NCBI RefSeq assembly: GCF_000003605.2
Contig: NW_003156743.1
Location: forward strand, 200,057-220,099
DNA from: Saccoglossus kowalevskii
Taxonomy: Eukaryota; Hemichordata; Enteropneusta; Harrimaniidae
Length of the DNA: 20,043 nt
Direction: 5' to 3'
The notes under the pieces are model-generated. The model saw only the letters and a program-made list of their open reading frames with translations. It did no database searches and was not told the origin of the DNA. This document shows, piece after piece, positions 472-15,921 of the stretch. A program made the translations under genes and the position numbers. Within the stretch, counting starts at the first letter, position 1; each line of letters starts with the position of its first letter.

Positions 472-2945
472 CTTTCAATTGAACTTAGATATGTCGGTCA
501 TAAGATATTATCAGATATATTGGTAAGTTCGGAAGATACGCTGATTGTTCTTGGATCAAGGGTAGCTAAAATACTTAATAGATGATCTCATAAATAGTAT
601 CAATATTACCGCTTTAATCAAGCCATATGATATTCAATACAGTTAAGTATATACTGAACACAATAGTATAGGATTATTATAAGCCTAACGCAAAGTATTC
701 ATAATAATGAAGGAAGCAGTAGTGAATTGGATGACGTACTGTTGAGATATCCTCGGAATTACCGCAGGAATTTTCGTCATTCTGATCAAACCGAATTGTA
801 TATAAAGCAAAAACCTGAGCAAAAATCATTGCAATATTTTCTCTTTATACGTGTAATCGTTTAAACTGCATTAACTAATAAAGATATGGTGCACACTGTT
901 CGATGCCACACAATTACAGCTTAATACATATAGTGATAGTATATACAATAAACTATAGGAAATACGTGCCTGATTTGTTTGCTGCGGCGTTCAAGACAAT
1001 ACCAGTGAAAACAGCAAACCAAAAAACTGAAATTAAATTATAATATTAATAATATAAGATTATTAACATACATAATCGTAAACATATGTTTAGTAAGGTA
1101 ACACATCCCACTCACTGACTGGCCCATGTAATTATTATGATGGTGTTGGGTATTGTACTAAAATGTTATTTAACAGAATATTTGAATGATTACAACAATA
1201 AATGTATGATTTTAAGACTAGACACTACGTAACAGTTTTTAGTCACATGATCAGTGTGTAAAATAACAACGAAACCATCGAAGACATCTACAACAAGAAT
1301 AATGTACGCCATTGAGTCCGATTAAAAAAACATTAATGATCGGAAATATGTATGCCAACTATATCCATCATTTGAAACAGAAAAGAACACGACATCCCAG
1401 TCTTTCCTAATGTTGGATTTCAACTTACGTGCAATGAATTTCAGTGTCGCTCTATAAACCATTTTTCACAACAATCCTAAATCCGCTGTATCATTCACTT
1501 GTACCTACTCGCAGTGGTCATATCTGCTCATTGAATTTACTTGATGATGTTAAATGCGTGTATGACTTGAGGCGGATTCATGAAGTACTATAACATCTGC
1601 CATTATATCGTTTTTGATAGCGCACAACCAATTGGAAACCATCATCAAATAATTAATGCTCATACAGACAAATTCAAGCATCTACTAGACCAATTCATAC
1701 GCATAAAACTATTTCCTTGCATATAAAACACTCAACAAAGTCCAGGAATATGTAAAAGGACGCGAATATTGTAACATATTTCAATACACCTATTTGTATG
1801 AATATTAAGTAATATTAATAAAGTAACATCAAGTTAATAATTTTACAGATATGTAAATTTGTCATTCGATGTATTCAATCTTGCCTCATAATAGTAGCAG
1901 AGTTGAGAGTTCTAGTCAAAAAATGTTTTAAACTTGTGCCCTACGGCATGGGTGTGTCGAACGATCAGCAACAACAATTTCAGTGACAACTGTCATGTAT
2001 AGCCAGATAAATACAAAGAAATTTTGTTTTCTCAAGCATGTATTTATTTACCATAACAACCAATCATTATTCAATTTCTACCTGCTATTTACACTATTGT
2101 ATCCCACTTACTAACTCGCAAAGCTTGCTTTCAGTATGCGACTATCATTATTACCGAACAAGCACCAGGCTGACGTTTGCATTACTATCAGTAGTAGTTC
2201 AATATAGTAGTACTTATATGGCAAACACACATCGTAGTTTCTTTCGACATATAAGTTACATACACCAGCTCAATATTATATTGGTGGTCTTTGTTTACAA
2301 GTTCAAGGCCATCGGCCAATAAAAGTATACACATAAATATTCTTAAATTACAAAAATCCGTAATATCGCTTCTACGTTTCAATGTGTGATAAGCATAGGC
2401 TGCCAAACATTTAATTATATTGGTTTCTTGTGAAGTTAATAATTCTTCAAATTTATAAAAAGATGGAGGGTTGAAATAGTATTTGGAAGATACAATTGAC
2501 GAAATTCAGAATAAAATGGGCATACTAAAAGGAAGTGGTATTCGTTTTCAATTTGATTTGCAACACAGACTTGACAAAGTCGCTGGTCTCTCTCAAGTGT
2601 TCCCCTGTCAGTTTCGATGCGCAGGCTATGCGAAGAGCAACGAAAACATGCTAAGGTTTTTTTGTGAGGGTTGATAATGACCGAAGTAAGATATTTTTTC
2701 CGCTGTAGTGCTGTTTCAAATTCTCAAACGTACATATGTAACTTAGCCAGTTATGCTGCAAGTAACATTTAAATCTAACAGTAAATGTTTCCATAAACGT
2801 GCTTGTATTGTTAAGGTTAAGTAAGCAAAATTCTGCTGCGCATTTGTTTTGCGCATGCAAACTCCCTAGCTTAGTTGAAACAAAATTGTGTGTTCTGCGT
2901 CGTATGCTGTCAATGTTTGCTCGATCGTGACTTGCGGTGTATGCA
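472..2945. other. AT-rich stretch without a recognisable gene
   Basis: About 2.5 kb with strongly AT-rich composition and many short A/T runs. Open frames of 60-95 codons at 2038-2322 (+), 2188-2406 (-), 2483-2674 (+) and 2651-3001 (-) show no family motif, no consistent splice context, and overlap each other on opposite strands. The left part of the Mutator-like element (promoter, 5' terminal repeat) may lie in 2400-2945, but no inverted repeat partner was found by eye. Confidence 0.5.
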
Positions 2946-3388
2946 ATGTCGGCCATAAGAAAATTTCTCTCTGGGAAGGAAAAAAGAAGACCTTGTGGCA
3001 ACAGCGAATTCGGAAAGATGTTGTAATTTTGTAGCGAGTCATTCGGGTGAACAGGGGCGATTGACCATCAGTTGCGAGAGTGACCGGGATGTAAACAATG
3101 AAAATGGCGCAGCAGACGACAATGTCACCCGTAATAAAGATATTCCGTGGGACGAAGGCATCAGAATGGTGAATTTGGACGTTTTATCCAAGGGTTTAGA
3201 CAGTTGTAATGTTTGTTCTTAACATCTAAGACTTAGTAGTTGCGTGGGAGAGTCAAAATACGGCGGTGGCTGTAATCTTCACATACCATGCGATCAGTCT
3301 GCCTCCATATACACCAACAAAACACAACACAAAGAAGGGAAGACATGCGGTATGGGTGCATTTGACATTGATACTAAAATAGCAACAG
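2946..3388 (+). pseudogene. Mutator-like gene exon 1: N-terminus and Cys-rich region
   Basis: ATG 2946 starts MSAIRKFLSGKEKRRPCGNS, a basic N-terminus closing at TAA 3024. From 2995 the next frame carries the recognised part: RNKDIPWDEGIRMVNLDVLS, then LDSCNVCS, a TAA at 3220-3222, then HLRLSSCVGESKYGGGCNLH, IPC and FDIDTKIATG. The family has a G-R-x-(V/I)-x-x-x-x-L-(A/S) start followed by a CxxC, a later Cys and an F-D-(I/V)-N-T-K segment, so the stop sits where a coding residue (often Ser or Pro) is expected. The donor is G/GTATGT at 3388/3389, phase 1. The need to change frame between 2946 and about 3030 implies a one-base shift; alternatively translation began elsewhere. Confidence 0.65.
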
Positions 3389-4278: not shown

Positions 4279-4457
4279 AAAAAGAAAATTAGTCAATCCA
4301 TGCATTCAAATCAACCAGTCAGCCAAAAAACAATCATTAGTCTGTCCACTCAATCACTCAACCAATAATTTAACTAATAGAGATACTTTATAAACGAATT
4401 AATAAAATATTTGGTAGTTGTAGTTAGTTTAATAAAGTGTATTTTACTTACGTCATG

Positions 4458-5216
4458 GTACAGTTCTAGGCTATCAGACAGGCAAGGTACTTTCATACAG
4501 TACAAGATGTAAACTGTGTCGTGTTTGTGAAGGTGCGCAAATGATGGGAAAGGAGACTCGGTGTCATAGCTGTCATAAGAACTGGTTAGGCAGTTTAAAA
4601 GCTATGGGGACAGATATTGCTGTTGAAGCAATAAAAGAAACTGAGCAAAAAGGTGAAATAGCCAGCATAACAATGGATAGATTGCAAACAAAAATAAAAA
4701 ATGACAAGGTAAAAAATAACCACACAAAGAAAGGATTTACTAATAAACTGTATAAGTTAAAGGAAGATTACAAGCAGTTATTAACAAAGGTCATAAACTA
4801 TTTACAGAAGTGTTTTAGTTATGCAATCTCTCAAAATCGTGACAGTGTTAGTAGCATGCAAAAGAATCTGAAATCTATAATCCCACATGCATTTGGAGAC
4901 CATACACATTGTTATGGCAGTTGGTGTCAATATTTAGTTGACCCTGCTAATTACAAACACAGTAGCCTGCCTTATGGAAAGGAATTGTGTAGTGATGATC
5001 TAAGAGCAAGTTCAGATAAGATTATGAAGACTTACATAGATAGTTCAAATGACTTAGCTAGGATGGGTTCAACACAGGGTAATGAAAATATGAATATGGT
5101 GATAGCTTCTAAGGCACCAAAAGCAAAACACTACAGTGGCTCTGATAGCTTCAATGTCCACATTGCAGCAGCTGTTGCCCAGAAGGACATAGGGCATACA
5201 TATGTGTGTCAGGTTG
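4458..5216 (+). pseudogene. Mutator-like gene exon 4: transposase core
   Basis: This is the largest intact piece: 253 codons open from 4458. It starts (G)TVLGYQTGKVLSYSTR, then CKLCRVCEGAQ, CHSCHKNWLGSLKAMGTDIA, ITMDRLQTKI, NHTKKGFTNKLYKL, YLQKCFSYAISQN, IIPHAFGDH, WCQYL, YKHSSLPYGKEL, RMGSTQGNENMNMVIASKAP and HYSGSD, then AAAVAQKDIGHTYVCQV. In the family the MD motif carries the second catalytic acid and is usually followed by D/E-D-S/A; here it is MDRLQTK, so that loop is altered, and the stretch before NHTKKGF is shorter than usual. The expected acceptor AG before 4458 reads TG (CATG), so splicing may be lost. The donor is G/GTAAAT at 5216/5217, phase 1. Confidence 0.8.
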
Positions 5217-6208
5217 GTAAATTAGCTTATACATGTAGTTCTACACCCATACTAATTGTATGTATGACTATAAATGCATGTATTTATATTGACACAATAG
5301 AGAGTAGTTAAATGTTAAGTAAATACTTATGTGTAAAATCACTCATAGTATAAATAAATTGTGGCACAGTAATTCACTGAATGTGCAGACATACATTGTA
5401 TGTTGTGTATATACCCCTGTACTCACCGGATAGATATAATTATGACAAATGTTGTTAAGATAAGTTATACAGTGCCTGAACATTTTATAGGCAATGTCCC
5501 AATTTCAACACACATAAAAAAGACTGACTGTATGTTTACATTAGAGAATACTACTATGGTGAACCATATATTTTGCTATTTAATCTGGGTCAACCAAAAA
5601 AATAACTTGTCACCCAGTAGTGCATGCCAAACAAGAAAAACAAAAATCCAAAACAAGAGAAAAAAAAACTACAACGATAGTATTATGATATTGTATTGCT
5701 GGGGGACATAAAGTACAACATTCACTCTAAAAGGTGGGAAGGGGTTAAATTTCTACTTTTTCAAAAGAAAAGGGGTCCAAAATTCGAGTTTTGCAGCCAT
5801 AGAAAATAGTAGGCCAAAATACCGCCTTTTCCAGAAGCAGTGTCTTTCCAAAATCCAAAGGCGCCAGCTAGCCAGGCCGATAGACAGTAGGCTTCCCTGT
5901 AGCCACCTGAGGAAAACTCATATCTTGGGCAACACTATGTGAGGATTTTGTGTTCAAATTTTATGGCAGAAACATCAGTGTATTCACTTTAGAATTACAC
6001 GATGTTTAGGTAGATGAATAACATTCCAATGTGCTAAAAGAAAAAAAACAATGACTCAAACAAACTCACTTTGAGGTAGTCAGTACTGATATACGGACCG
6101 GCCATAGAAGGCACTGTTGCATATTAAACTCAGAAGTCCCCCCCAATATAAACCAGATGTTTACTAGATTACAGCCAATGTTTCATTTCCTGTTGTTTTT
6201 CCTTGCAG
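5217..6208 (+). other. Intron region where at least one exonuclease exon is missing
   Basis: About 1 kb between exon 4 and the exonuclease segment. Family members have a linker and the first exonuclease motif (F-D-x-E-T) here, but no convincing copy was found in any frame. A 103-codon open frame at 5400-5711 has no family motif. The segment 5740-5900 contains a run of GGGG/AAAA-rich sequence of no known type. The missing exon was either deleted or has decayed beyond recognition. Confidence 0.5.
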
Positions 6209-6319
6209 GTTCAGATGCAGAGATTACTCAACTATCTGCTGTTACTGGTGAGAGACAGTTTGAAGGTTATATATTGCCAAAACAACAGTCCAGTTGTTTC
6301 CAGGATAACTCATCTGATG
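6209..6319 (+). pseudogene. Mutator-like gene exon: exonuclease motif I end (SDAEITQLSA)
   Basis: After the acceptor TTTTTCCTTGCAG ending at 6208, the 111-nt exon reads (G)SDAEITQLSAVTGERQF, then EGYILPKQQSSCF and QDNSSDG. DEDD exonucleases have D-x-E-T-T-G followed by (D/S)-x-E-I-x-Q-(I/L)-(S/A)-(A/C), then a beta strand ending (Y/F)(V/I)LP, and this order is kept. The donor is G/GTAAAA at 6319/6320, phase 1, giving an in-phase join to the next exon. No disabling change is visible inside this exon; its upstream partner with the first catalytic D and E is missing. Confidence 0.75.
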
Positions 6320-6415
6320 GTAAAAAATGGTGAATTGTGCTACCAGAGCCAACCAGTGAAAACAATGGATTTTAAAAAAAAAACATGCTCGGAAAAATTT
6401 CTTTATTTTTTTTAG

Positions 6416-6927
6416 ATGTCAAGAATCCTATTTTAGTTGGTCATAATAGGTTTATGGAAGTTGTTAGTGGTTTTGTGAATACTCTGCCATTGTTTAAATC
6501 TGTGTATCCTGGTGAAGATTCATATGCACAACAAAGTTTGGTTGGTGAATTTGTTGGTCAGGTTTATAGTTTACATAATGCTAGTGTGGATGTGCTTGCA
6601 CTACAGAATTGAATGTTGCAAAATTGACTTGCCAACAATGTTAGATCATAGCTATACATTTGAATATGCTGTTAGTTGTCACGATTACAATAGTAAAAAG
6701 TCATCTAACTATAACACATTGTCTATACTAGTCAACAGCAAAATAATCAGTAAGTCAATGGCACAGAAAATTTCAGGGTCAGGCCCAAGGTACAGTCAAT
6801 GAAGCTGGCTTATGATAGAGGTGACATTGATGGACTTACCAGAATACTTACAGAAAAAATAGATGATATTGTGAGAGTTACAAACAGAATCATCTTAAAT
6901 ATATATGAATATTTCAATAAAAAGTGA
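6416..6927 (+). pseudogene. Mutator-like gene last exon: exonuclease motifs II-III and C-terminus
   Basis: A T-rich acceptor (TTTATTTTTTTTAG) ends at 6415, 97 bp after the previous exon. The exon reads DVKNPILVGHNRF, MEVVSGFVNTLPLFKSVYPG, EDSYAQQSLVGEFVGQVYSL, HNASVDVLALQ, then in the next frame PTMLDHSYTFEYAVSCHDYN and SKIISKSMAQKISGSG, and in a third frame MKLAYDRGDIDGLTRILTEK, ending at TGA 6925-6927. HNxxxxDxxAL is the last DEDD motif (H, D). VGHN should be followed by K-x-F-D and about 20 residues before SGFVDTLP, so a deletion between RF and ME removed the third motif. Single-base shifts lie near 6606 and 6797. Confidence 0.8.
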
Positions 6928-7896: not shown

Positions 7897-7904
7897 TATT
7901 TTTA

Positions 7905-10744
7905 TTAGCAATTTCGAAACCCCCAATATAGAAGAATGCTTATACAAAGTTTGGTATAATTGACATGGGTTTTGAAATTGTCATATATTGGAACGCTGTA
8001 CCTTAACTTCCTGACTGTACCAAAAATTATGCATATTACAAATAAAAAAAACAAATTCTTTATATCAGAGATCCATGTATGCTTATTTCTAACTCCAGAC
8101 TCTTCTATACTGTAAAGCATATCATAACATTTACGGTGATATCTATTATGGAGCATGTTAATTAATTTTGCCCAATATTTTGCACAAACAGTTGTTTATT
8201 AGACGAGGTATCCCATTTTTCTGGATTCGTTCGAGGCAATCATACTGTCGAAATCCCCAAATTTCAGCACCATATGATAAAATTGGCAAAATCTTGGAGT
8301 CAAAAAGTTGAAAAATACATCATAATTTAGGGACCTGTTTTGTCACTTATTTTCATAATGGCAAACATGGCATTTTTGGCTTGTTCTGCTAAAACCTTTG
8401 TTGCTGTTGACCATAGACGTTTACAAGAAAAATCAACCCCAAGATAATTATAGTAGGTAACTGCCTCGATTTCATCACCTTTATAAAACCATTTTTCATT
8501 TTTAGACAAGTGACCACTAGCTTTAAAAAACACAACTTTAGTTTGTTTCCTATCCACTGTCATTTTCCACCTGTCACAGTAACTACTTATTATTTTAAGT
8601 AATCTTTGCAACCCGATAACCGTATCTAAAAACATTGCTACATCATCTGCAAATAATAAGCAGAAAAGTTTCACAGGGTCGGGGAAGAGCTGTCTGACAT
8701 GATAATTGCGTTGCGTTGCTGCAATTCAAAGAACAGTTCGTTTATGAAAAGGAAAATAAAAAGGGCTTAGCATGCAGCATTGCTGAACGCCGACAGAACA
8801 GTCGAAATATTCGGTTTCTCCATTTGGGGGCGGACACAAGATTTCACGTTTGAATATATGCTGGACAATATTTTAAACATTTTCCCGTTTATACACCCTT
8901 TAGCAGAATATACCACAACCTTTGTCTATCAACAGTGTCAAAAGCCTTCGAAAAATCGAAGAACGCACAATAAAATTTTCACCGTTTTCTGGTAATGTAC
9001 TTATGAATAATTGACAGCGTGATAAAAATGTTATCAAACGTTGGGTAACCCTTTCTGAATCCCGCCTGTGCTTCGTCGATCTTTCCAAGTGCTTCTGCCC
9101 CAAAATACAGCCGTCTAATTAGCATCGAAGTAAAAATTTAACCAAATATACTGAGCATGGAGATTGCTCTATAATTCCCTGGGTCATCGGTGGACCTTTT
9201 TTTATATATTGGAATGACAATTGCTCTTGACCAGACGTTTGGGAATTTTCCTGATTCAAATATTTGGTTTAAAATAATGTTTAAAATGTGGGAAAAGAGT
9301 TTTTAAAGAATTTGCCAATCAGCTCGTCGGAACCTGCAGATTTACTATTTTTAATACTAGTAATGCTATGACTAATTTCGTCAGCTGTGATAGACCCATT
9401 TAGGATATTCCCATAGTGCTAGGTTGAAATTCGTCAACTAATTTAAGTAGATCCTGGAACTCGTCTGCAAGAGCAAAGTTATCCTCTGCCTTATCACCTG
9501 TAAAGAGCGTACTAAAGTAGTCATACCATTTAGCAGGTGTGATAGGCAGATTTGGTTTGGCAGAGAAAGGGTTATTTGGTTGTCTAAATGACGACCAAAA
9601 CAGATTTGTATCAGCGCATATCAAATGTGACTTGATTTGATCTATATGTTGGTGTTTTTTGTCCCGGCAAACATACACAAACCTTTTACTCATTAAGTGG
9701 TATTCATGTAAATGAGTTGGGTTATTGGTATTACGGAATTCGTATAACAATCTGTATTTCTCTTTTTTATGTTGTTTACAATCATTGTCAAACCAAGGTG
9801 GTTGTTCTGTATATGTGTTTGACATTTTCTTTATCATACCACAGTTATCAGCTACAGATCGATTCAAGTCTTCAATTATATTAACAGATACGTCTGTATG
9901 AGATTTACATTTTCAGAAATCGGGTTTAACCCATTTTGTATTTCCTCGGTATATAATTTGCTCATACAATTTGCATTGACATAAAATTGTTTATGTACAG
10001 ACCCCTGTATACTAAATACAAGTGGGAGATGATCAGACTCTGTACGGGACATAATAAAGAAATCAGTGATATCAGTAAATAAAGGTGTCGACACAAGAAC
10101 ATAGTCAACAAGGCGTGCCCCGTTACTTGAGATACACGTAAAGTAACCAACACATACATCGCTGCCTACTATACCATTCAAAATATGCAAATTGTGTGAG
10201 CAGCAAAGAGATAACAAAGTACGACCAAAATTTTTAGAAATGTTATCTTTTGTTGCGCTTGGAATGTTGAAGGTCACCGTTTAAAATCAATTTGCGTCAT
10301 CAACTTAAATAAAATGGTGATCAAACAATTTTCAAATAATTCAATTCCATTTCGTGATTCATGATTATCATACAGTGTTGCATTTTGGGGAGGTATATAA
10401 ACATCACAATAGATGATATCTTTATCAAAGCCAAACAATTCTTTTTGGAAAGGAAAAAATAAGCAATCATGAAGGCCAGTTTTGATACATTTAACATGGT
10501 GAATCAAATTATTTCTAATTAGTGTTAAGACACCTCCAAAAAATCGAAAATCGATTACTGACTTTCGCGGTCTAATACGATTGTACACTTTAAACCCATG
10601 AAAAAATCAGAAAGATTCGACAGATTCAGGCCAGGTTTCTGTTAAAGAAATAACATCATATGATAGTAAAAAGTTTATGAATTCGGGAGACTGAAGTTTA
10701 TATTTTAATCCTCTGATATTCCAAGAAATAACGTTTATTTTCGT
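7905..10744 (-). pseudogene. LINE ORF2 remnant: APE endonuclease, reverse transcriptase, C-terminal region
   Basis: Endonuclease: KINVISWNIRGL at about 10741, YDVISLTETW, a TGA at 10609-10607, YNRIRPRKS, FGGVLTLIRN, a GDL/NIPS motif split by a shift near 10270, GARLVDYVLVS and ESDHLPLVF (catalytic D-H). Linker: TEQPPWFDNDCKQHK and PAKWYDYFSTLF. Reverse transcriptase: DDPGNYRAISMLS, KIDEAQAGFRKG, FFDFSKAFDTVDRQRLW (catalytic D, near 8950), VGVQQCCMLSP, LFINELFFELQ, then LFADDVAMF at 8653-8642. C-terminus: LFDSKILPILSYGAEIWGF near 8250, then HNRYHRKCYDMLYSIEESG and TWISDIKNLFF. These follow the usual order of target-primed reverse transcription enzymes. Many shifts and stops; no active copy. 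Confidence 0.88.
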
Positions 10745-10886
10745 CGGGTTTTGGCCGGATTCCTATTCGGCAATATTGTCGACCAGCACATTTTCTCCAG
10801 TGCTCAGGGTTTGTTTTTGTGTTCGAGGTCGAGTAGGTGGTCGTCGGTCTTCTTTTCTTTGGATCTGATTTGATGACAGTGCCCTA

Positions 10887-11379
10887 TCAGAATCCTAAAC
10901 AATTTAGCTCTTTTAAAATATCCCTTTTCCCGTCTGACTTCAATTTTCCCAGTATTTCATTTTGGCGCCTCATCAAATCATTCTTTTTGCACTGGACGGA
11001 CAGTGAGTGCAAGTAGCTTATCATCGGAATAGTGAAATTTCGCAATAATTGGACGTGTACGGCCCTGAATCGGAGTGTTCGGCACTCTTTGTGCACGGAC
11101 AATATTCCGTTTAACCCATACTTTTTCAGTGATACTTTCATTTAATAAGTTTAATACTTTGACCTTACAGTCTTCGAACAACAGGCCGTCAGCTTCAGCG
11201 ATTCCATGGAGTTTTACAATATCTGTCCGAGAAAATGACCCCTGTCTATGAGCATCGGCATCTAAAATATCTATACGTTTGATGATTTCGTCCAGCTTTT
11301 CGTTTATCACTGTACAGTCAAGATCTTGAATATTACTATTTTCGGAAATTTCTCCAACTTCATCCTTCAATATATTCAC
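10887..11379 (-). pseudogene. LINE ORF1 remnant, L1-like RNA-binding protein
   Basis: The frame 11379-10978 reads VINEKLDEIIKRIDIL (short coiled coil), GSFSRTDIVKLHGIAEADG, then NIVRAQRVPNTP and GRTRPIIAKFHYSDDK. L1-type ORF1 proteins have a coiled coil followed by an RRM with N-x-(R/V)-(I/L)-x-G-(I/L)-x-E, then a basic R-A-H-R-x-G and R-P-R-P-I-I-(V/A)-(K/R)-F, and these are in the right order. A second frame, 11141-10887, carries the tail CKKNDLMRRQNEILGKLKSD and RDILKELNCLGF, so a one-base shift lies near the A-run at about 10980. ORF1 protein binds the element's RNA in the cytoplasm. Confidence 0.7.
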
Positions 11380-11400
11380 TGTGACATTGTAGCTTCGTCA

Positions 11401-11921
11401 CCTTTTCACAGTTGTCTTGGCGCGCGTGAACAGAGGACCCACTGAACCATATGAAGTTAACGTAGCTAGTGACACATGTACGAATAGATCCGAAGTACAT
11501 AACGTACACAGTTTTATGGTTTTAAAATTGAGTCCTCAATATGTAGTGCGCCCTCAGTGTTGGATTCAATCTGACACAAACTTATCTGGAATTCTAAAAA
11601 TGAACACGGAACTAAATAGTTAGCATACAATATGTATTCCTTGATACAATATATAGAATGAAACGAAAATCATGAATGTTCGTTCTTAGTAGCCCCACAG
11701 AAAAAAATGAGTTAGTTTTTAAACATATTCGATATTCAATACTTTCATTAAGTCTAAATAAATATAATTTTTTGTTAGTTCACCATTCTTAAATAGTCCA
11801 CCACATGTTATAATACATAATTTTTAATTATCGTTATATTGTTTAATAAAGAAGAATGTCAGTAGAATTAAGTAACACACAGGCGTGTTTGAGTACTGTG
11901 TTTGGGAAATTATAAACCCCT

Positions 11922-12061: not shown

Positions 12062-12291
12062 TCATGTCATGTGCCATATACCTCCTGGGTCATCTCCCAT
12101 CTCAATGTTTTCGTTATTTTCTTCCATTTCCATTTCCCGGCGTATTTTGTGCTTTTTATTACGGGCTGCCCGTTTTGTGTTATCCTTGCCTCGTTCCGAG
12201 CGTCGGGAGCGTGATATGTCAAAGCACATAAATAGAATCGAGACACATAATGCGAATACCACCAAGAGAAGGCCATTGTATAACAGCCATC
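12062..12291 (-). CDS. Last exon of a single-pass membrane protein: transmembrane segment and cytoplasmic tail
   Basis: On the minus strand, the acceptor TTTACTGTCTTCATAG ends at 12292 and the exon opens in phase 1. It codes for 75 full codons to TGA at 12064-12062. The first ~24 residues are hydrophobic (WLLYNGLLLVVFALCVSILF), followed by a basic stop-transfer stretch (SRSRRSERGKDNTKRAARNK, KHKIRR), then an acidic stretch (EMEMEENNENIEMGDD) and PGGIWHMT. The basic cluster after the helix predicts an inside C-terminus (type I topology). No known tail motif was recognised. The frame is open from the acceptor to the stop and codon use looks natural, which argues for a host gene. Family unknown. 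Confidence 0.62.
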
Positions 12292-12469
12292 CTATGAAGA
12301 CAGTAAATATATATATTTGAGTTATGTTTAGTGTCGATATTATTCAAACAAAAAAATAGGAATATAAATAATAATATTTAAGATATGTTATAATAATATG
12401 TAAGATTATATAATAATATTTCAGAAAACATTAAAATGTCTGACTCAGTTTTAATTATTTTGTATTTAC

Positions 12470-12544
12470 CTTTCAAATCGTCACCGTGTTTGTCCATAAC
12501 AATTGTCACCAAATTTGTGGTATAGTTCACATTCAAAGCATTAT
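12470..12544 (-). CDS. Penultimate exon of the membrane protein, 75 nt, phase 1-1
   Basis: The acceptor CTCTTTTTGTATATAG ends at 12545 and the donor is AAAG/GTAAAT at 12470/12469. The exon reads (D)NALNVNYTTNLVTIVMDK, HGDDLK(G). Both borders are phase 1 and the length is a multiple of three, so it joins in frame to both neighbours: the last codon becomes GGA (Gly), followed by WLLYNG. It gives one N-glycosylation sequon (NYT) and lies just outside the membrane helix, consistent with a juxtamembrane segment. The intron to the last exon is 178 nt. Confidence 0.6.
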
Positions 12545-13460
12545 CTATATACAAAAAGAGCAAAGTAAATAAGCGGCAAATTATTCTTAGTTCAACTCTC
12601 CACACGGAAGTTAGGGTTGTAGTACGGTCGTTCATATGATTTAGTGCCCTAATATGATGCTCCCAATTCGCTGTTGCAAATTGTATTCTGATTGCTCACA
12701 AGACAATGTGTTGCCTGCCAAGTTTGAAAGAAATCGGCCAACCAAAAACAATCACAGAGTTAATACATGACGACGACATACATGCGATTATAAACGGATT
12801 GCAAACAAGACATGGACTCTCATCAAATCATGGCACTATTGTTACGGGTATTTAATCACTTGATATTTCCTACAGGAAACCTCATTATGATATTTAGTAA
12901 ATACAATATTGTCATGATTGTTTAGATATGTAAATGCAGTAATTTGTGTCCATACCGCCGGAGAATACACCGCGCCAAAAACTTTCATACTCTAAAACTA
13001 GGGGAACTTTGTGACGTAAATGCCCCATAGTGTAAACTTAATATTAAATAATTCATAAACACTCGTTCCAGGGCTATAAACTATATGCAAATCAGACTAG
13101 CATTTATATTTATATGAGGTAATTAGACAAGACGAAACATGGTAGGAGTTGGGTCGAATTCAATTTCACGTATATATTGATGTTCCATATTTAATTATTT
13201 CAAAATATAAGTGGTGAAAAACGCATGCATAAACTTATGTTGACCTTTATATTGACAGGCTGTGTTTTCATCGTCTAAACTTCCCACTTACCAACAAAAT
13301 AGTAGTTACGATTAATTTCTGTAAAAAATATCGCTAATGTTCAAACCATGCAATTTTGTTTAACCAAGTCAGGTTGTTTTAGCGACATACATACATCGAT
13401 GGGTTCATTCTGATCTGGACATATTTCCATGAGGTTTCATTCGAATACAATATATCGACT
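12545..13460 (-). other. Intron of the membrane-protein gene, part before the minisatellite
   Basis: AT-rich, no coding signal seen. CCAAGTTTGAAAGAAATCGG at 12718-12737 resembles the AAGTTTGAA...ATCGG core found in the diverged repeats at 16100-16920, so a relic of the same dispersed family probably sits at about 12690-12860. CATACATACATCGATGGG just before 13400 leads into the repeat array. Confidence 0.4.
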
Positions 13461-13866
13461 GTATATTAGACAGACGTGTACATCGATATCAGTCAATAAA
13501 GCAATTGTGTATTAGACAGACGTGAGTGCATCAGACAATGAAACGACTGTCAATTAGACAGACGTATTTGCATTAGACAATGAAGCAACTGTACATCTGA
13601 CAGACATGTGTGCAATATACAATGAAGCAACTGTAGATTTGACATATATGTGTGCATTAGACAATGGAGTCAGTGTACATTCGACAGAAATGTGTGCAAC
13701 AGACAATAAAATCAGTGTACATTGGACGGACTTGTGTGCAACATTCAATGGAGCAACTGTACATTATACAGACATGTGTGCAACAGTCAATGAAGCATAT
13801 AGCGTGCAATGTCATATCAATTATTGGCATGTAAGCGTAAAATAGCATGAATGTTGTTAATAAATT
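13461..13866. repeat. Minisatellite block 1 (406 bp)
   Basis: The block begins GTATATTAGACAGACGTGTA, carries about eight 42-bp units and ends in a 66-bp non-repeat tail (13801-13866: AGCGTGCAATGTCATATCAA ... GTTGTTAATAAATT). Block 2 begins and ends with the same sequences, so the two are copies of one larger unit. Confidence 0.85.
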
Positions 13867-15741
13867 GTATATTAGACAGACGTGTACATCGATATCAGTC
13901 AATAAAGCAATTGTGCATTAGACAGACATGAGTGCATCAGACAATGAAGCGACTGTCAATTAGACAGACGTATTTGCATTAGACAATGAAGCAACTGTAT
14001 ATCTGACAGACATGTGTGCAACAGTCAATAAAGCAACTGTACATTAGATAGACATGTATGCAACAGTCAATGAAACAACTGTACATTAGACAGGCATGAG
14101 TACAACAGTCAATGAAGCAACTGTACTTTTAACAGAGCCGTATGTAACAGTCAATAAAGCAACTGTACATTAGAAAGACATGTGTGCAACGATCAATGAG
14201 GCAACTTTTCATTTAACAACTATATGTGTGCATCAGACAATGAAGTCAGTGTACATTAGACGGACATGTATGCAACAGTGAATGAAGCAACTGTACATTA
14301 GACAGACATGTGTGCAACAGTCAATGGAGCAACTGTACTTTAGACAGAAATGTGAGCAACAGTCAATGAGGCAACTGTACATTAGACAGACCTGTATGCA
14401 ACAGTCAATGAAACAACTGTACATTAGACAGACATGTGTGCATTAGACAGTAAAGCAACTGTACAATAGACAGACATGTGTGCAACAGTCAATGAAGTGA
14501 GTGTGCATTTGACAGATATATGTGCATCAGACAATGAAGTCAGTGTACATTAGACAGACATGTATGCAGTAGACAATGAAGCAACTGTACATTAGACAGA
14601 CTTGTGTGCAACAGTCAATGAAGCGACTGTACATCTGACAGATTTGTTAGCAACAGTCAATGAAGCAACTGTACATTAGATAGACATATCTGATACGTTG
14701 CGCATTGAGAAACTCGATATTAAACTGATTTTTGAACACAGGCCATGGAATAGGGGCTTGCTCCGTCCTGGCCACGGATTGACTCAATATTGCAGTAATT
14801 CTGGGAATGGTCCACCTCATAAACAATTTAATATCAGAATAAAACTAATCAACCCTTTGCGTCACTCGTTTTGTGCATTTAAAAAAAAGACATGTGTACT
14901 GCAGTCAATGAAGCAACTGTACATTAGACAGACATGTGTACAGCAGTCAATGAAGCAGCAGTACATTAAAAAGACATTTTTGAATCAGACTATGAAGTCA
15001 GTGTATATTAGACGGACATGTGTGTAATGGACAATGAAGCAACGTCAGTGTACATTAGACAGATATGAATCAGACAATGAAGTCAGTGTACATTAGAAGG
15101 ACATGTGTGCAATGGACAATGAAGCAACTGTACCTTAGACAGACATGTGTGCAACAGTCAATGAAGCAATTGTACATTAGACAGACATGTGCGCAATAGA
15201 CAATGAAGCAACTGTACATTAGACAGACTTGTGCTGAACAGTCAATGAAGCAACTGTAGATTAGACAGACATGTATACAACAACCGAAGAAGCAACTGTA
15301 CATTAAACAGATATTTTTGCACCAGACAATGAAGTCAGTGTATATTAGACGGACATGTGTGCAATGAACAATTAATCAACTGCACTTTAGACAGACTTGT
15401 GCTGAACAGTCAATGAAGCAGCTGTACGTTAGACAGACATGTATACTGCAATCAATGAAGCAACTGTACGTTAGACAGACATGTGTGCAACATTCAATGA
15501 AGCAACTGTAGATTTGACATATATGTGTGCATCAGACAATGGAGTCAGTGTACATTCGACAGAAATGTGTGCAACAGACAATAAAATCAGTGTACATTCG
15601 ACGGACTTGTGTGCAACATTCAATGAAGCAACTGTACATTATACAGACATTTGTGCAACAGTCAATGAAGCATGTAGCGTGCAATGTCATATCAATTATT
15701 GGCATGTAAGCGTAAAATAGCATGCATGTTGTTAATAAATT
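13867..15741. repeat. Minisatellite block 2 (1875 bp)
   Basis: The block starts with the same leader as block 1 immediately after the block 1 tail, carries close to forty units plus a 200-bp insertion, and ends in the same 66-bp tail (15676-15741) with a single visible difference (CATGCATG versus CATGAATG). The 200 bp before the tail also match block 1 (13594-13800) closely. Block 2 therefore differs mainly by expansion of its middle, or block 1 by contraction. Confidence 0.85.
14688..14887 (+). mobile_element. 200-bp retroposed-looking insertion in the minisatellite
   Basis: Non-repeat sequence interrupts a 42-bp unit. AGACAT at 14682-14687 on the left recurs as AGACAT at 14888-14893 on the right, preceded by A7-8. 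A poly-A end next to a short direct duplication of the target is the mark of LINE-driven retroposition. The body (CAGGCCATGGAATAGGGGCT, CCGTCCTGGCCACGG) is more GC-rich than its surroundings. No clear pol III A or B box was found, so it could be an unrecognised SINE, a 5'-truncated LINE end or a retrocopy of a cellular RNA. Confidence 0.55.
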
Positions 15742-15759
15742 CATTTCATGATTGAATAC

Positions 15760-15921
15760 CAATTGGTGTCGTATTTGTTACTGCTCCCGTAGTCTCAAAA
15801 TATGTATTGTTCGTCACACCAAGAGTAGAATGTATAATATCTGCCGCCGATTTCTTTGTTGTGGGTGAGGTTGAAAACTCAGTTGTAATGTCTGATTGAT
15901 AAACATTTTCAACAGTACTAG
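15760..15921 (-). CDS. Upstream exon of the membrane protein: Ser/Thr-rich extracellular stalk, phase 1-1
   Basis: The acceptor TGTCTTTATATCTTTCAG ends at 15922. The 162-nt exon reads STVENVYQSDITTEFSTSPT, TKKSAADIIHSTL, VTNNTYFETTGAVTNTTPI and ends ATTG/GTATTC at 15760/15759, phase 1. It is rich in Thr and Ser with sequons NNT and NTT, as in O-glycosylated, mucin-like stalks. It joins in phase to the 75-nt exon (G + AT makes Asp). The donor GTATTC is weaker than usual; without splicing the frame ends at TGA 15754-15752. The 3.2-kb intron that follows holds the minisatellite. Earlier exons were not found in the window. Confidence 0.5.

Follow-up and report, generated by a model that had tools for sequence, protein, structure and literature searches.

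The window analysed here, a stretch of 20,043 nucleotides (nt) from the hemichordate Saccoglossus kowalevskii (C4619:200057-220099), carries on its minus strand three segments that are the predicted last three coding exons of member A of a three-gene tandem family. Joined in the order 15921-15760, 12544-12470 and 12291-12062, they give an open frame of 154 codons with every junction in phase 1. AG precedes all three exons, GT follows exons 1 and 2, and exon 3 closes at TGA, in agreement at every border with the original prediction, which had proposed three minus-strand segments with acceptors and donors at the right places, joined in phase 1. In chain order, the first visible exon (exon 1; 162 nt, phase 1-1, acceptor score 9.5; splice scores are from an approximate metazoan matrix) encodes a Ser/Thr-rich stalk with serine or threonine at 20 of its 53 residues, exon 2 (phase 1-1, 75 nt, acceptor 6.9, donor 7.8) encodes a juxtamembrane piece with one sequon, and exon 3 (230 nt including TGA, acceptor 8.8), the terminal coding exon, encodes a hydrophobic transmembrane helix followed by a basic and then an acidic tail that runs to the stop.

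The 154-residue chain contains two sequons (proline after the site excluded) and one hydrophobic stretch, with a Kyte-Doolittle mean of 2.81 over 19 residues. The net charge of the tail is +9 over its first 30 residues and -6 over its last 26. The sequence thus has one transmembrane helix, a basic stop-transfer stretch and a cytoplasmic tail, the layout of a type I single-pass membrane protein. An AlphaFold model of the last exon, built from the single sequence, consists of one long helix (residues 2-63; mean predicted local distance difference test score 78.7) and offers weak support. Two ATTAAA polyadenylation signals lie 214 and 233 nt past the stop, but AT-rich DNA is estimated to yield such words easily by chance, and they were not used.

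Searches of the genome (572,110,611 bases in 4,830 contigs) place these exons in a tandem array. A DNA search with exon 3 returned exon 3 itself and two further sequences, 85% identical and both on its contig and strand: copy A is that of the window, whereas exon 3 of copy B lies at C4619 172752-172979 and exon 3 of copy C at C4619 140564-140788. A to B spans 39.4 kb and B to C 32.2 kb, so that the two further copies lie approximately 39 and 72 kb from the window copy. The protein search of the genome gave nine matches, being the three exons in each of the three copies with order and strand kept, and the tail exons had no match in the genome beyond copies A, B and C (all 13 candidates scored). 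Discovery of the same segments as dispersed repeats had been named as grounds for abandoning the gene; the dispersed-repeat reading was rejected, as every further match belongs to one of the two tandem copies nearby on the contig. Outside this genome, the 154-residue tail had weak matches alone in Pfam and PDB, all under cut-off, and neither the tail nor its last exon had a relative in the viral, prokaryote-genome or plasmid collections.

The used splice sites, the phases and the position of the stop are common to copies A, B and C, with TGA in A, TGA in B and TAA in C as the stop codon at the equal place. Exons 2 and 3 align without insertion or deletion across the copies, and exon 2 has the same length, borders and frame in B and C. 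The exon-1 donor GGTATTC, although weak in A, is present in all three copies; directly before it, 18 nt (six codons, in frame) are missing from B and C. Introns and a minisatellite likewise align between the copies, and therefore a large block was evidently duplicated. That the tail is real is settled by the recurrence of its exons, borders, phases and stop position in two further tandem copies. Sequence differences among the copies include the cytoplasmic juxtamembrane stretch, which contains a CxxC motif in B (SRCSECGK) and C (SRCSNCGK) and reads SRRSERGK in A.

Two other exon borders were considered with the aid of the paralogues. A fourth exon (11843..11919, minus strand), reached from a donor at 12081 (score 5.1) to an acceptor at 11919 (score 8.7), has plausible sites in copy A, but it was rejected: neither copy B nor copy C has the donor GT, and conservation is lacking further downstream. 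An alternative donor of exon 1 at 15819 (score 4.5), whose GT is also found in B and C, was set aside since the frame continues to the common GGTATTC donor; the border at 15760 is preferred, and the site at 15819 may be used too.

Selective constraint was estimated by the Nei-Gojobori method on the codons that the copies share (147 or 148 of 149, the six extra codons of A, the stop of B and the final stops being omitted). The ratio of nonsynonymous to synonymous divergence (dN/dS) over the joined exons is 0.48 for A-B, 0.57 for A-C and 0.67 for B-C; for the last exon alone it is 0.29, 0.44 and 0.52, respectively (ratios of the printed dN and dS values). Fisher tests of synonymous versus replacement changes, on rounded counts, gave p 0.015 for A-B and p 0.047 for A-C. 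In the last exon, 51 of 76 residues are identical across the three copies, and the acidic C-terminus conserves the pattern IEM-D-PG-IWHM. Judged by these comparisons, the last exon is under constraint, with replacements held down. The proposal that the window holds the 3' end of a host membrane-protein gene in three phase-1 exons is upheld by the sharing of these exons with paralogues B and C, together with the constraint in the last exon.

Within the window, four of the five splice sites score well: the acceptors of exons 1, 2 and 3 rank in the top 0.6%, 3.8% and 1.2% of 1,982 AG sites, and the donor of exon 2 in the top 1.1% of 2,474 GT sites. The exon-1 donor of copy A scores 0.7 (top 33% of the GT sites). 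Open phase-1 segments flanked by fair sites are frequent (55 on the plus strand and 38 on the minus strand, 93 in total), so that exons 1 and 2 by themselves prove little. The architecture of the last exon (an acceptor of at least 8.7, at least 70 codons, a hydrophobic helix and then a basic stretch, criteria fixed after the exon was seen) occurs once in the window. Of 400 order-3 Markov simulations restricted to phase 1, none reproduced it; when the phase was left free, 1 of 400 simulations satisfied the criteria for acceptor, length and helix, and 0 of 400 the full set. The period-3 power of exon 1 was matched by 0 of 997 background windows and that of exon 2 by 24 of 1,049; a test of the period-3 signal gave p 0.0005 for exon 1, p 0.016 for exon 2 and p 0.011 for the joined exons. 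These single-genome statistics indicate more than chance, though only in part.

Phase-1 symmetry had been taken in the original prediction as a hint of shuffled extracellular modules, and C-type lectin and pentraxin domains were indeed found upstream. In copy A, the first half of a C-type lectin domain (CTLD) lies 10 kb upstream of exon 1 in the same orientation (C4619 226392-226168) and by itself scores 23.0 bits against Lectin_C (PF00059; cut-off 22.6). Copy C has upstream, on the same strand, the lectin first half, a second half with the motifs EPN and WND, and then a pentraxin exon; between A and C, the lectin first half has dN 0.040 and dS 0.108. The two-exon lectin domain of copy C scores 78 bits against Lectin_C, covering positions 4-107 of 107, and has both motifs of the Ca2+/sugar site, of which EPN is associated with mannose/glucose in a passage of PMC12842671. 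The pentraxin exon of copy C matches Pentaxin (PF00354) at 32.2 bits (cut-off 25; positions 24-192 of 194) and Laminin_G_3 at 32.9. The sequence of copy C, HICIIWVA, departs from the pentraxin signature H-x-C-x-[ST]-W-x-[ST] at both [ST] positions.

The lectin module of copy C starts in phase 1, contains a phase-0 intron and ends in phase 1, and its pentraxin exon is 1-1 (570 nt). Because these borders are phase-compatible, the lectin and pentraxin modules and the tail exons could be spliced together without change of frame, and the strong donor at the end of the pentraxin exon (score 9.9) makes it unlikely that this exon is the terminal one. A genome search with the lectin-pentraxin pair gave at least 121 matches (123 of 324 candidates were scored, so that counts are lower bounds); the pentraxin exon matched itself at E 9.1e-127, and among the matches listed the best one elsewhere in the genome had E 1.7e-13 and 29% identity over query positions 1-150. 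At least 17 of the matches form a dense one-strand cluster of pentraxin-like frames at C350:216187-262939, and a second cluster is located on C4257.

It is quite likely, from these data, that copy A belongs to a three-gene tandem family of single-pass type I membrane lectins with a CTLD and pentraxin ectodomain and the tail described above. Gene order, shared strand and compatible phase point to the link between ectodomain and tail, and the protein of the window gene would be a membrane lectin of type I that probably serves as a recognition receptor. A narrower claim, that one chain of a cell-surface receptor fuses two innate lectin types, a mannose-type CTLD and a pentraxin, above a Ser/Thr stalk and a conserved tail of its own, as class 1-1 modules in a tandem family, is favored only slightly over its denial.

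Several observations weigh against the membrane-lectin gene. In exon 1 of copy B, near C4619 175160, the fourth full codon is an in-frame TAA stop, and exon 1 by itself shows little or no constraint (dN/dS of 0.114/0.094 for A-B, 0.139/0.178 for A-C and 0.108/0.111 for B-C). A period-3 signal is absent from exon 3 (p 0.39), and CpG content fails to set the exons apart from other sequence of the window. The pentraxin exon, if read past its donor, meets a stop after three further codons, which would allow a secreted protein. In the stretches scanned upstream of A and C, no convincing phase-1 exon for a signal peptide was found. The lectin-pentraxin exons could be a separate gene, or further modules could intervene.

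The alternative that survives best, although a doubtful one, is that the tail exons belong to a real membrane-protein gene with another ectodomain, the lectin-pentraxin exons being a neighboring gene for a secreted lectin. Besides the stop just past the pentraxin donor, it is favored by the approximately 18.7 kb that the intron from the pentraxin exon to exon 1 would span in copy C, with opposite-strand open frames inside it that look by eye like those of a long interspersed nuclear element (LINE), and by the abundance of CTLD and pentraxin frames in the genome, to which the at least 121 matches attest. Against it, the pentraxin exon stops at the end of the domain with a strong phase-1 donor that requires a phase-1 exon downstream, and exon 1 is the next evidenced exon on the pentraxin strand within the sequence read; furthermore, a lectin half-domain also precedes copy A, so that lectin and tail co-occur at both of the two places that are readable.

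It is improbable that the family is dead or dying and the copies are duplicated, functionless remnants. The stop in exon 1 of copy B and the dN/dS of the whole tail, only moderately below 1, would fit such decay, but in A (lectin first half, exons 1-3) as in C (lectin, pentraxin, exons 1-3), every coding part observed has an open frame and undamaged splice sites, and exon 1 is symmetric (phase 1-1), so that copy B could skip it and hold the frame. That the segments are a chance open frame with plausible splice sites and no gene is scarcely credible, for all the 93 phase-1 open segments of the window, the weak exon-1 donor of A and the flat period-3 profile of exon 3, since frame, borders and stop are kept in two diverged paralogues, exons 2 and 3 are free of frameshifts and replacements in the last exon are held down; the paralogues refute this reading unless all three copies are dead.

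In the preferred reading, that of a membrane-bound lectin with a pentraxin domain, the EPN/WND lectin domain would bind surface glycans through its Ca2+ site, which has the mannose-type motif, and the pentraxin domain would be a second binding or clustering module, kept off the membrane by a stalk that is likely O-glycosylated. The basic stretch and the conserved acidic C-terminus of the tail may bind cytoskeletal or trafficking partners. There is no tyrosine in the tail of copy A, compared with two in copy B and one in copy C; because the tail of copy A lacks it, adhesion, uptake or cytoskeletal coupling via the basic region appears likelier than signaling of the immunoreceptor tyrosine-based activation motif type. 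The likeliest role of such a protein would be innate recognition of microbes, or of the glycans of other cells in cell adhesion.

Among known systems, members of the mannose receptor family (PLA2R, the mannose receptor, CD205) are likewise type I membrane proteins with C-type lectin domains, and the best solved relatives of the copy C CTLD are in the PLA2R/mannose receptor family (the PLA2R whole-chain E value of 1.1e-45 being summed over several CTLDs). To our knowledge, proteins of that family have many CTLDs and no pentraxin domain, in contrast to the one CTLD, the one pentraxin domain and the different tail seen here. The solved sequences closest to the pentraxin exon of copy C are neuronal pentraxin-2 (E 7.5e-15) and neuronal pentraxin-1 (E 5.6e-14). 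NPTXR is a membrane pentraxin anchored by its N-terminal end; the neuronal pentraxins, unlike the predicted receptor, are not known to have a C-type lectin domain. C-type lectin and pentraxin modules are usually studied separately.

According to a passage of PMC12842671, the bivalve proteins CgCLec-HTM and ScCTL-1 resemble the predicted protein in having a CTLD outside and a C-terminal membrane helix, and the words 'pentraxin' and 'pentaxin' are absent from the main text of that review and of PMC10140915, a paper on bivalve CTLD architectures. An Aplysia paper (PMC9334734) lists both kinds of lectin, in passages that do not join them. Full-text literature searches did not find the combination of lectin, pentraxin and membrane anchor, which is no proof of its absence from print. 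Taken alone, the tail is nothing unusual. Should the parts prove to form one gene, that gene would be a membrane-bound C-type lectin plus pentraxin in a small tandem family with constrained and divergent parts, and the locus would illustrate how class 1-1 exons are assembled, the rule that PMC8001218 gives for shuffled extracellular modules of animals.

A sialyltransferase gene (C4619:235189-236055, minus strand; Glyco_transf_29, 154.8 bits, 3.9e-45) lies upstream of copy A on the same strand and gives an indication of how far the copy A gene can reach. Elsewhere in the window, LINE pieces are found on the gene's strand (minus) at 7900-11400 and 2436-3067, the latter LINE-like by eye alone; Pfam showed no LINE family there. 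Matches resembling reverse transcriptase and endonuclease, under the curated cut-offs, are at 8330-8725 and 9879-10280, and a LINE piece had no relative in viral contigs. The LINE seems to be split by a Mutator-like element on the opposite strand, with a predicted transposase at 4436-5311 (plus strand; PF20700, 2.7e-32); a simple search found no clear target-site duplication (longest shared word 9 bases). Downstream of the transposase, exon-like pieces at 6055-6612 (plus strand) are exonuclease-like by eye and have no Pfam family and one weak PDB match (E 0.052).

The intron between exons 2 and 3 (12292..12469, minus strand, 178 nt) has its GT and AG conserved in all three copies. The intron between exons 1 and 2 (12545..15759, minus strand) contains the minisatellite, tandem arrays of a 42-bp unit at 13490-13797 and 13896-15672; because the array aligns to copies B and C too, it is older than the duplications. 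In the same region, a block at 15741-15407 is repeated at 13866-13532 with 92% identity. Inside the minisatellite intron, a block of approximately 200 bp that is specific to copy A (14688..14887, plus strand), spanned by no alignment to B or C, contains the 3' part of U2 small nuclear RNA and a short A-run; the Rfam U2 match (70.4 bits) extends over 14631-14820, its 5' part being minisatellite. The block is read as a putative 5'-truncated U2 retrocopy in the intron.

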